The position numbers and the translations under genes are program-made. Of a stretch of 64,000 nucleotides of DNA, positions 11,086 through 13,922 are shown in pieces (position 1 is the stretch's first letter; each line of letters opens with the position of its first letter). Location: contig NZ_JAANYN010000002.1 of the NCBI RefSeq assembly GCF_011290685.1, positions 62,001-126,000 on the forward strand, written 5' to 3'. The notes under the pieces are model-generated. The model saw nothing but the letters and a program-made list of their open reading frames with translations. It was not told the origin of the DNA and ran no database searches. This DNA is from Cyclobacterium plantarum. Lineage in GTDB: Bacteria > Bacteroidota > Bacteroidia > Cytophagales > Cyclobacteriaceae.

Positions 11086-11163
11086 ATCGTAAAAATAAAG
11101 GTAATTTCACCTAAAAAAACGGTATATAAATAAATAAAAAATAGTTTTGACATTTTTTAACTC

Positions 11164-11547
11164 CGCTCCTCGGAATTTGTAATTCCGTGGTATAGATAAG
11201 GGGGATTTGTAATCCCCAAAACTGTCTCTGGGTGTAGTTTGCAACTACATCCCAGGTATCCGATTGGTTACGGATACGAGGCATTTGTAATGCCGGAATC
11301 CAATGACCAACCGTAACGAAAATTGTGCTTTAATATGAACCCCTCTTTGGGTGTGAGTTTGCAACTACATCCCTGCTATTCGTTCGGTTATGTATACGAG
11401 GCATTTGCAATGCCGGAAACCAAAGATCAACCGTAAAAAAAATCGTGCTTTGAAATGCACCGATAAGCCATTACAAATGGCTTTTTGGCAGGTTTTTTCT
11501 GTTTATGATTCCGTAAATAACTGGGTGAAGTGCCATACTTCACCCAG
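11164..11547 (+). repeat. Multi-hairpin repeat element, copy 1
   Basis: A ~384-bp element with about nine hairpins: CGGAATTTGTAATTCCG (11171-11187), GGGGATTTGTAATCCCC (11201-11217), a long GTAGTTTGCAACTAC stem (11228-11255), a GTATCCG/CGGATAC stem (11256-11277), GGCATTTGTAATGCC (11280-11294), another GTTTGCAAC stem (11349-11373), GGCATTTGCAATGCC (11400-11414), AGCCATTACAAATGGCT (11466-11482) and a CTGGGTGAAGT/ACTTCACCCAG stem (11521-11547). Most stems end in TT...AA around a 3-nt TGT, TGC or ACA loop, while the outer stem bases differ and still pair. A ~115-bp unit is tandemly duplicated inside (11228-11336 and about 11347-11457). Confidence 0.85.
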
Positions 11548-11628
11548 TACTAATTAAGTTATTGGGTACCTAAATCCTGGATTACAGAAATGTTAATACG
11601 GTACGCTTGCGAAAAAATCCCCCTATTT

Positions 11629-11648
11629 CCCTCCGCCGCGGCGGAGGG
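11629..11648. repeat. Perfect 20-bp palindrome, copy 2
   Basis: Identical to 6323-6342 (CCCTCCGCCGCGGCGGAGGG) and again preceded by AAAAAATCCCCC. It lies between the two multi-hairpin elements. Confidence 0.75.
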
Positions 11649-11720
11649 ATTTTGTCTTTGCTCACCGATATAAGGGTATTGCAGGACAACCGTAACTATC
11701 TGAATCAAACCGCAGAATCC

Positions 11721-11824
11721 TTTCGTACTTTTGGCTTAGATCCAAAAGTACCAAAAGATCAAGGCACAAAAATCCTTCCCCCCGCATCCCTGCCGCACCC
11801 CCGGTTTTGTGCCAGCCTGCCCGC
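11721..11824 (-). repeat. ~120-bp dispersed repeat, copy B
   Basis: Reverse-complement partner of 7998-8117. Its hairpin is GTACTTTTGG (11725-11734) / CCAAAAGTAC (11742-11751). Compared with copy A, two stem positions have changed on both arms so that all 10 pairs are kept. Confidence 0.65.
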
Positions 11825-11929
11825 TTTCCTTATTTGCCGACATTCCATCAAACCTAGTAGTTGGCTTTAAAATCAAAACAAATGATTGGATAAAGTGGAT
11901 AAGGTGGAAGTGGATATCCGATTGGCTGC

Positions 11930-12312
11930 CCGCTCCTCGGAATTTGTAATTCCGTGGTTCAGATAAGGGGGATTTGTAATCCCCAAAAACCTCTCTGGGT
12001 GGTTTGCAACTACATCCCAGTTATCAGATTGGTTTCGTATACCAGGCATTTGTAATGCCGGAAGCCAATCACCAACCGTAACGAAAATCGTGCTTTAAAA
12101 TAAACCCCTCTCTGGGTGTAGTTTGCAACTACATCCCTGCTATTCGTTTGGTTATGTATACGAGGCATTTGTAATGCCGAAAGCCATAGATCAATCGTAT
12201 ATAAAATCGCACTTTAAAAAGCATACGAGAAGCCATTACAAATGGCTCTTTAGCAGGTTTTATCTGTTTATGATTCCGTAAATAACTGGGTGAAGTAGCA
12301 TACTTCACCCAG
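11930..12312 (+). repeat. Multi-hairpin repeat element, copy 2
   Basis: Direct repeat of 11164-11547 with the same order of hairpins, starting at CGGAATTTGTAATTCCG (11938-11954) and ending with the TGGGTGAAGT stem (12286-12312). Differences are scattered substitutions plus a 2-nt deletion in the third hairpin (about 12000). The first GTATCCG stem is degraded here. Confidence 0.85.
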
Positions 12313-12380
12313 AATTATTATCTGTGCTAATCTGAGTAATCTGTGGTGCACCCTGGCAAGGCGGATTTGGACACATACGG

Positions 12381-13847
12381 CTACTCCTGCGCGATATCCG
12401 ACAACATCTGTTTGACTTTATCGGGTACGGTATCCCTTTCCAGAAAGCCGACTAGTATATAGGTAATAGCAGACGACAGTACCGGCAGGCTTACTTCCAG
12501 GGCCAGGCTGTTTAATTCCACATTTTTAGTGATCACAAAGGCCAGCAGCCCCACCAAAATGGATCCAATGGCTGCCTTTGGCCCGCAGGATTTGAACCAG
12601 GGAATCAGCCCAAAAAGCATGGGGATGGCGATGGGCCCTACCAAAGCACCAAACCAACTGATGATCAATCCCAGTACCCCACCAAACCGTTCAAACTGCA
12701 ACGCAATCACAATGGTCCCCAGGGTAAACAGAAAAGTGGTAATCCTGGCTGTGGTGAGGGAGGTGGCTTCCTTCCGGAATTTTTTATTGACAGCCGGTAA
12801 AATGTCCCGGGAGATCACGGCCGAGATGGTATTGATATCGGAAGAGGTCATGGACATGGTGTTGGCAAACAAGGATGCGATCACCAAACCAATCAAACCA
12901 ACGGGCAACAACTCCATGGTAAGAATACCATAGGATTGGGTAGGGTCTTCCATATCGGGTAGGAGTACGGGGGCAGCCCACATGGGAAAAAACAAAATCA
13001 ATGGCCAAACCAGGTACAAGGCCCCCGACAGCCAGGCTGCCTTGGAAGCCTGTTGTTCCGTAGGGGAAGAAATGTAGCGCGTGGCCAGGTTCCATTGCCC
13101 CCCATTATAGGAAAGGAAATTGATAAACAGGAATGCCAGGGCAAAACCAACCGTGTAGGGATCGTTGAAAGCCTGTGCATTGCCTTCAGGCAATTGATCC
13201 CAAACGGTGAAAACGGATTCCAAACCACCCAGTTTCTGCACGACCACCACAAACATGACCAGTCCGGCAATGATCTGTACAATGAACTGGGCAAAATCGG
13301 TAATGATCACCGCCCACAAGCCTCCAAAGGTGATATAGAGCAGGGATATTCCCCCCGAAATTAAAATCCCCCATGTCAGGGAAATACCGGTAAACACGTT
13401 TAATAAAATGGCTATGGCCGCCCATTTGGCACCGATGTCAAATAATTTCAAAATAACGCCGCTCCAGGCCATCAGTTGTTGGGTAGCCAGGTTGTAACGG
13501 GTTTCCAAAAACTCCAGGGGAGATTGGATTTTGAACCGTTTTCTAAGCCTGACCCAGAATACAGGAAATACCTTCGCCGAAATAATAACCGTCAGGCCGA
13601 TTGTTAATGCCCACCAGATATACACCGAAAAACCATGGGTATAGGCCAGCCCGGCATAGGCCACAAAGACTGCACCGCTGTAACCGGAAACATGATGGGA
13701 AATTCCTGACAACCACCAGGGAAGCTTCCCTCCGGCGACAAAATAATCCTCTGCATCATCATTTCTAAAGTAGGACCAGACGCCGATCAGCAGCATCAGG
13801 ATAAAAAACAGGCCAATCACAAACAGGTCGGTGGTACTCAATTCCAT
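12381..13847 (-). CDS. Sodium:solute symporter (SSS family)
   Basis: About 488 residues from the ATG at 13847 (MELSTTDLFVIG). An upstream ATG at 13913 would translate through a perfect hairpin and is unlikely. Many hydrophobic helices (around 13) and the early motif GGKLPWWLSGISHHVSGYSGA fit the SSS family (PF00474), which couples uptake of sugars, sialic acid or other solutes to sodium. The gene lies downstream of two exported Gfo/Idh/MocA oxidoreductases in the same orientation, so the cargo is probably a sugar or sugar acid handled by them; this is inference. Confidence 0.9.
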   Translation of the reverse strand: MELSTTDLFVIGLFFILMLLIGVWSYFRNDDAEDYFVAGGKLPWWLSGISHHVSGYSGAVFVAYAGLAYTHGFSVYIWWALTIGLTVIISAKVFPVFWVRLRKRFKIQSPLEFLETRYNLATQQLMAWSGVILKLFDIGAKWAAIAILLNVFTGISLTWGILISGGISLLYITFGGLWAVIITDFAQFIVQIIAGLVMFVVVVQKLGGLESVFTVWDQLPEGNAQAFNDPYTVGFALAFLFINFLSYNGGQWNLATRYISSPTEQQASKAAWLSGALYLVWPLILFFPMWAAPVLLPDMEDPTQSYGILTMELLPVGLIGLVIASLFANTMSMTSSDINTISAVISRDILPAVNKKFRKEATSLTTARITTFLFTLGTIVIALQFERFGGVLGLIISWFGALVGPIAIPMLFGLIPWFKSCGPKAAIGSILVGLLAFVITKNVELNSLALEVSLPVLSSAITYILVGFLERDTVPDKVKQMLSDIAQE

Positions 13848-13876
13848 GGGAAACTTTTTTGGGGTTAAATTGAAAA

Positions 13877-13905
13877 GAAGGCCAAACGGTAAAAGTTTGG
13901 CCTTC
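13877..13905 (-). terminator. Perfect 11-bp hairpin between oxidoreductase and symporter genes
   Basis: GAAGGCCAAAC (13877-13887) and GTTTGGCCTTC (13895-13905) form a perfect stem with a 7-nt loop, followed on the minus strand by TTTT. It follows the stop at 13923 and precedes the symporter start at 13847. It may end the upstream operon or partly attenuate read-through into the symporter. Confidence 0.65.
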
Positions 13906-13922
13906 AAAAACACAAAATACTA

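Follow-up and report, generated by a model that had tools for sequence, protein, structure and literature searches.

Two hairpin arrays in one intergenic gap

What kind of element places the same run of hairpins twice in one intergenic gap, and keeps the hairpins paired while their sequences differ? The window analysed here, a 64,000-nucleotide stretch of the Cyclobacterium plantarum genome, holds two direct copies of such a run, at 11163-11552 and 11930-12317. Each is about 390 bp long, slightly more than the 384 bp given in the original prediction, which had correctly recognized both. Both copies fall in one gap of 1.3 kb, flanked by a gene for a sodium:solute symporter (12381-13913) and one for a DUF5686 protein. 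As these two genes are read on the minus strand, the copies follow the symporter gene and precede the DUF5686 gene. Repeats recur at a distance of 765-767 nt and comprise a 72-nt block (93%), a 92-nt block (91%) and a unit of about 120 nt. This unit is present in four copies, three of them 73-88% identical to the reference copy. A tandem unit had been predicted and does exist, but its period is 119-120 bp and not 115 bp.

Each copy contains eight hairpins, where about nine palindromes had been counted: seven have a TTTGYAA core, and the terminal one, of 12 bp, does not. The apex, TT-TGY-AA, is constant and is enclosed by different four-base, paired stems. The stems first described (GGAA, GGGA, GTAG, GGCA and GCC(A) inverted) are all present. 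At least four further perfect pairs surround the core in 12 of the 14 cores of the copies, versus 1 of 21 in the rest of the window (Fisher P = 1.3e-6), bearing out the claim that the core is constant and the outer stems vary yet pair. The two decayed cores are at 11358 and 12003.

The spacer between the copies (11553-11929) carries another inverted repeat, 11717-11734 with 11742-11759, which looks like a different intergenic repeat.

Two hairpin families and their junctions

With copy 1 as BLAST query, 67 matches were obtained in the same genome (6.17 Mb in 37 contigs), including the two in the window; further copies, which the original prediction had proposed to look for, are thus plentiful. 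The matches sort into two families, A and B. Family A units have the order 1+ 2+ 3- 4-, with stems GGAA and GGGA followed by inverted AGGA and GACA. Family B units have the order a+ b+ c- d-, with stems GTAG and GGCA followed by inverted GCCA and GAAG. A full unit opens with GCT, an outer hairpin, a linker and an inner hairpin; a spacer or a RAYT gene comes next, and the hairpin pair then returns in inverted orientation, with AGC at the end. Our counts of cores, unit orders, foot types and open reading frames cover the window and 20 genome stretches picked for matches or Y1 genes, and are not genome-wide.

Both window copies consist of a family A left end (1+ 2+) joined to family B units, and the A right end is absent. 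The same junction is found twice at C22:798.4-798.9 kb and once at C31:515.1 kb; because it recurs at other sites, it represents a recurrent composite. The features of the two copies are as follows, R1 being a hairpin model introduced below.

11163-11552, plus strand: mosaic copy 1, family A left end followed by family B units
11165-11190, plus strand: GCT foot (11165-11167) and family A outer hairpin 1 (11168-11190), apex TT-TGT-AA; R1 match by construction, as this row was used in building the model
11201-11217, plus strand: family A inner hairpin 2 (GGGGATTTGTAATCCCC); core pairing
11230-11253, plus strand: family B hairpin a, GTAG stem
11280-11294, plus strand: family B hairpin b, GGCA stem
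11350-11373, plus strand: second family B hairpin a, decayed, 2 outer pairs
11400-11414, plus strand: second family B hairpin b, TGC apex
11465-11483, minus strand: family B hairpin c, GCCA stem, inverted
11520-11548, minus strand: family B terminal hairpin d, GAAG stem; apex no longer TTTGYAA, core kept in the copy at C2:76.3 kb; inverted repeat I13
11930-12317, plus strand: mosaic copy 2
11932-11957, plus strand: GCT foot (11932-11934) and family A outer hairpin 1; R1 match
11968-11984, plus strand: family A inner hairpin 2; core pairing
11996-12019, plus strand: family B hairpin a, decayed, 1 outer pair; core pairing
12045-12059, plus strand: family B hairpin b
12117-12133, plus strand: family B hairpin a
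12164-12178, plus strand: family B hairpin b
12231-12247, minus strand: family B hairpin c, inverted; core pairing
12286-12312, minus strand: family B terminal hairpin d; inverted repeat I14

The sequence ATCTGTG.TAATCTGAG.(T)AATCTGTGGTG(C)A, or a near variant, follows B units in the window (12319-12349), at C22:798.3-799.3 kb and at C5:38.0-38.6 kb (L037, L038), and seems to be a third repeat riding with the element.

A RAYT gene inside a family A array

Six Y1_Tnp matches occur in the genome, all of them outside the window, in agreement with the predicted absence of a transposase there. One of these genes, C22:895144-895668, is a RAYT with an open frame, scoring 108 bits against the RAYT model NF047646 (cut-off 80) and 30 bits against the Y1 domain PF01797 (cut-off 23). 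It is located within a family A array, with hairpins 1+ 2+ before the gene and 3- 4- after it. The RAYT gene that was expected elsewhere in the genome is therefore found within an array of the same hairpins. The HUH Y1 domain is related to that of IS200/IS605 elements, which also have hairpins near their ends (described in PMC2817692). Unlike those elements, however, the gene reaches 23.3 bits against the IS200 model, with a cut-off of 55, and its ends are inverted hairpin pairs.

Residues N59, H60, H62 and Y137 are invariant among 15 aligned RAYT proteins. In this alignment the family A protein has NHCH, W-E and YIHFNP motifs and an SS pair, which vary among its relatives, and it is 7 columns shorter in one region than the other RAYTs. 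A profile of the 15 proteins gave E. coli TnpAREP (4er8) as best PDB match, with a modest E value of 3e-4 over 44 residues. RAYT relatives are present in 41 of 59 genomes, its own included. Among the matches listed, the closest (97%) comes from a Cyclobacterium MAG, with C. salsum, C. roseum and C. lianum next, and relatives reach through Cytophagales into other Bacteroidota orders.

The other Y1 genes of the genome were set apart from this one. Four pass the IS200 model NF033573 and were set aside. The sixth encodes a weaker RAYT-like protein (L036 1309-1869, C31:548.4 kb) that scores 71.7 bits, below the cut-off of 80; no paired TTTGYAA core was found around it in a 10-kb locus (L056), where two cores have one pair each.

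Hairpins accompany RAYT genes in other genomes

All nine RAYT loci examined at 59% identity or more are flanked by hairpins; a tenth place, in G028:C13, was left out. For the best 80 of 279 loci, we asked whether a hairpin with four or more outer pairs lies within 400 bp of the gene. One does in 49 of the 66 loci at 55% identity or above (17 have none within that distance), versus 3 of the 14 below this value. Hairpins occur on both sides of the gene in 35 of the 66. The layout of hairpins relative to the gene could be placed for 24 of 30 RAYT genes, with strand taken into account. This recurrence in other genera upholds the REP/RAYT half of the original prediction.

A model of 26 positions, R1, was built from the window and 39 RAYT-adjacent hairpins. 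It has matches in 24 of 60 family genomes, and 11 of the 60 carry a close RAYT (E up to 1e-55). At least five hairpins were found in 9 of the 11 genomes with a close RAYT versus 6 of the 49 without (Fisher P = 1.5e-5), a comparison that leans towards RAYT genomes because R1 was built mainly from hairpins beside RAYTs, and in which counts are lower bounds, 150 or, under stricter filters, 128 candidates having been scored per genome. The correspondence has exceptions in both directions. One genome (G092) has a close RAYT and yet no R1 match, while two of the same genus (G001 and G004) have 57 and 53 R1 hairpins and only fragments of a RAYT or weak matches to one. We read these hairpins as possible orphan populations after RAYT loss, or as a possible effect of assembly gaps.

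Stems covary around a constant apex

Every TTTGYAA within 400 bp of the RAYT genes at the best 80 loci was collected, paired or unpaired (317 cores, 261 distinct), a sample without selection for pairing. Stem offsets 1-8 pair in 46-82% of cases versus 26-62% after shuffling (z = 5.6-16.2), whereas offset 9 shows no covariation (z = -1.2); in distant-core controls (265 distinct), z ranges from -0.3 to 3.3. Covariation, for which a test had been proposed, is thus present and strong. A separate alignment of 40 chosen hairpins (A3; 33 distinct) leans towards pairing, as a hairpin needed at least 7 of 8 pairs to be included. In this alignment 7 of 10 pairs changed on both sides, and pairing, double-side-changed cells and the covariation score lie above all 500 shuffles, the two other of the five measures being reached by 14 and 6 of 500.

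Covariation by itself cannot separate RNA from single-stranded DNA, and the copies do lie between two minus-strand genes, behind the symporter gene and ahead of the DUF5686 gene. The hairpins could be kept as a structured RNA or an mRNA 3' end that acts in the transcript beyond the symporter gene, perhaps in termination or in stabilizing the mRNA. We consider this improbable. Rfam gave 0 matches in the window at gathering scores. Single stem mismatches are G.T in 9 cases, A.C in 7 and other in 20, with no clear wobble excess in what is a weak test on small numbers; the near-equality of G.T and A.C fits a DNA hairpin better than RNA, small as the numbers are. The hairpins are also clustered at RAYT genes and their unpaired tag is one-sided, and both observations speak against this reading. 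The structured-RNA half of the original prediction was thus not borne out, although the hairpins may have a secondary role in transcripts.

An unpaired GCT foot precedes the outer hairpin

Directly 5' of the outer hairpin is an unpaired GCT. Counting one row per locus, over 62 of the 80 loci, G is found in 38 of 42, C in 38 of 42 and T in 41 of 42, with no consensus one base further out. The foot goes with the paired stem. Near RAYTs, GCT precedes 94 of 130 cores with 7-8 pairs, 13 of 123 with 4-6 and 4 of 61 with 0-3 (314 cores, as opposed to 317 in the covariation set, owing to the use of one standard gene end for most loci). At far cores the corresponding values are 6 of 15, 2 of 45 and 1 of 209. 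Foot and apex also occur together, a loop-blind scan finding TT and AA at the apex in 113 of 114 GCT-footed hairpins.

In the window and the 20 genome stretches, the outer A hairpins (types 1 and 4) have GCT in 36 of 38 cases and the inner types 2 and 3 in 6 of 66. The outer B hairpins are mixed (GCT 3, ACT 2, TCT 2, GTT 1; n = 8). Both A ends in the window carry GCT. Classical REPs have an unpaired GTAG in the foot position, and E. coli TnpAREP is described as cutting at C|T (PMC8266576). The GT[AG]G tag of REPs is not found here, GCT occupying its place, and by analogy we read GCT as the probable counterpart of the classical tag. It could serve as a guide or as a cutting site.

The foot also bears on whether the hairpins are instead sites for a double-strand DNA-binding protein, their symmetry being kept for a dimer. 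A protein site could well combine a constant centre with symmetric flanks. Here, however, the apex is constant and the symmetric stem variable. Near RAYTs, GCT precedes 92 of 129 TGY hairpins on the 5' side only, and the 3' side of the 129 shows no AGC preference. The closeness to RAYT genes is specific as well. We regard a dimer site as extremely unlikely.

Placement, turnover and the state of family B

Paired hairpins are mostly intergenic. In the window and the 20 stretches, where open reading frames of at least 150 aa cover 72%, 10 of 157 paired hairpins lie within such frames, versus 74 of 151 unpaired cores. The sites themselves differ between species. At the window's site, the A end is missing in one sister species, which has a single B unit (L088). 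In three others the site holds, respectively, an A end with a single B unit (L090), an additional A set (L089) and little besides the A end (L094). At the RAYT site a relative (L209, in G008) has 122 bp versus 1.1 kb here, a short unit without RAYT or arrays. These differences show turnover at both sites.

Family B is numerous in the window's genome, with 39 matches versus 1 to 16 in the others of 12 genus genomes, a comparison that favours this genome because the B query came from it. No family B RAYT was found in it by Y1_Tnp and RAYT-relative searches. Stop-free RAYTs flanked by B-type hairpins (GTGTAG stems) are present in two sister genomes, G003 and G006 (L099-L101), and one, likewise free of stops and flanked by such hairpins, occurs in another genus (L077); a copy containing stops is found in G010 (L084). 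On the best reading, the B units here are orphans that persist, some of them placed behind the left end of a family A unit, as they are in the window.

Could the window copies then be inert relics that spread long ago and have since undergone only decay and local duplication by recombination, with no RAYT involved? Two of the 14 window cores are decayed, B units are found in local tandem series and have no detected RAYT, and many hairpins persist in G001 and G004, where no intact close RAYT was found. On the other hand, 32 of 38 outer A stems (types 1 and 4) in the window and the 20 stretches retain 7-8 of their 8 pairs, and the A RAYT is an open frame. We consider a wholly inert system possible, if rather unlikely; the B units may be in a relic state even with family A active.

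Relation to REPs, REPINs and RAYTs

Very probably, the two copies are mosaics made up of non-autonomous, REPIN-like mobile elements belonging to the Bacteroidota RAYT class (subclass 2.6 / group 5). Their hairpins are short palindromes in many copies, mostly intergenic and RAYT-adjacent, as in REPs. Inverted hairpins surround a short spacer, as in REPINs, with two hairpins per side in both 1+ 2+ 3- 4- and a+ b+ c- d-. The gene between the inverted palindromes has a Y1 domain of the RAYT kind and NH.H and Y motifs. The short palindromes, the unpaired 5' tag, the inverted pairs around a spacer or RAYT gene, and the occurrence both in arrays and dispersed resemble gammaproteobacterial REPINs and BIMEs as portrayed in PMC2817692, PMC8266576 and PMC3116915. 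Unlike in those elements, the tag is GCT and not GTAG, each end has two hairpins, and the apex is constant with a freely varying stem. Constant and important apex positions are nevertheless reported for some RAYTs (PMC8266576).

Bacteroidetes RAYTs were classified as TnpAREP subclass 2.6, which includes 40 Bertels group 5 sequences and whose flanks are called 'atypical', without GT[AG]G, in the available text of PMC6006769. The protein motifs listed there are NH[LIV]H, WQ, YIH[QN]NP, SS and a 21-aa insertion. The present system agrees with that account in its Bacteroidota host, in RAYT-flanking hairpins without GT[AG]G, in its further genomic copies, and in the NH.H and YIH.NP motifs and C-terminal SS pair of the protein. 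It differs in that the W-Q motif reads W-E in most of the present clade. Because some of the listed motifs differ, we regard membership of subclass 2.6 / group 5 as likely but short of proof. Four features go beyond the description in that text, namely the foot (GCT), the apex (TT-TGY-AA), the doubling of hairpins at each inverted end and the joining of two families in one mosaic. We saw no consensus for Bacteroidota REPs in the open-access literature searched. The foot, the doubled inverted ends and the mixing of two REP families were not part of the original prediction.

How might such units spread? As a single-strand-specific HUH Y1 transposase, the RAYT would read the unpaired 5' GCT foot and the TT-TGY-AA apex of a DNA hairpin of about 10 bp. 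If recognition rests on foot and apex, any stem that pairs would do, and stem sequences could drift freely. The enzyme would cut and rejoin single strands close to the foot, which could carry units to other intergenic sites and build tandem arrays. Family A would be moved by its own RAYT, C22:895144-895668. More speculatively, this may be a RAYT class with its own code, in which the GCT (or CT) foot is itself the C|T cutting site or guide, accompanied by a constant apex and two hairpins per end, and in which orphan B units that have lost their own RAYT are now carried by A ends. One RAYT would then spread another's REPs as composites, such as the two in the window. This extended scheme is doubtful, and we put it forward tentatively.

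As REPIN-like elements of a RAYT, the copies are largely explained, and their interest lies in the defined recognition features. With a defined tag, apex and end structure, REPs of this kind become searchable, as the reach of R1 across the family illustrates. The way in which a RAYT recognizes its REP also becomes testable with oligonucleotides, through the constant apex, a different foot and the freely varying stem. The window mosaics show the hairpin form of a poorly described transposase class.

Other apices at deeper RAYTs

We inspected 39 loci of deeper RAYTs with few or no TTTGYAA hairpins. Many carry hairpins with other apices; the TTTGYAA code is therefore not that of the whole class. 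Four loci whose RAYTs have 46-50% identity (L185, L190, L196 and L198) have another common apex, AGCT around a gga/gaa or tcc/ttc loop, which suggests that apex and RAYT clade change together. At a further locus (L067, in G021), about a dozen CAAGTT-nnn-AACTTG hairpins with a spacing of 57 bp lie on one side of a RAYT with 51% identity.
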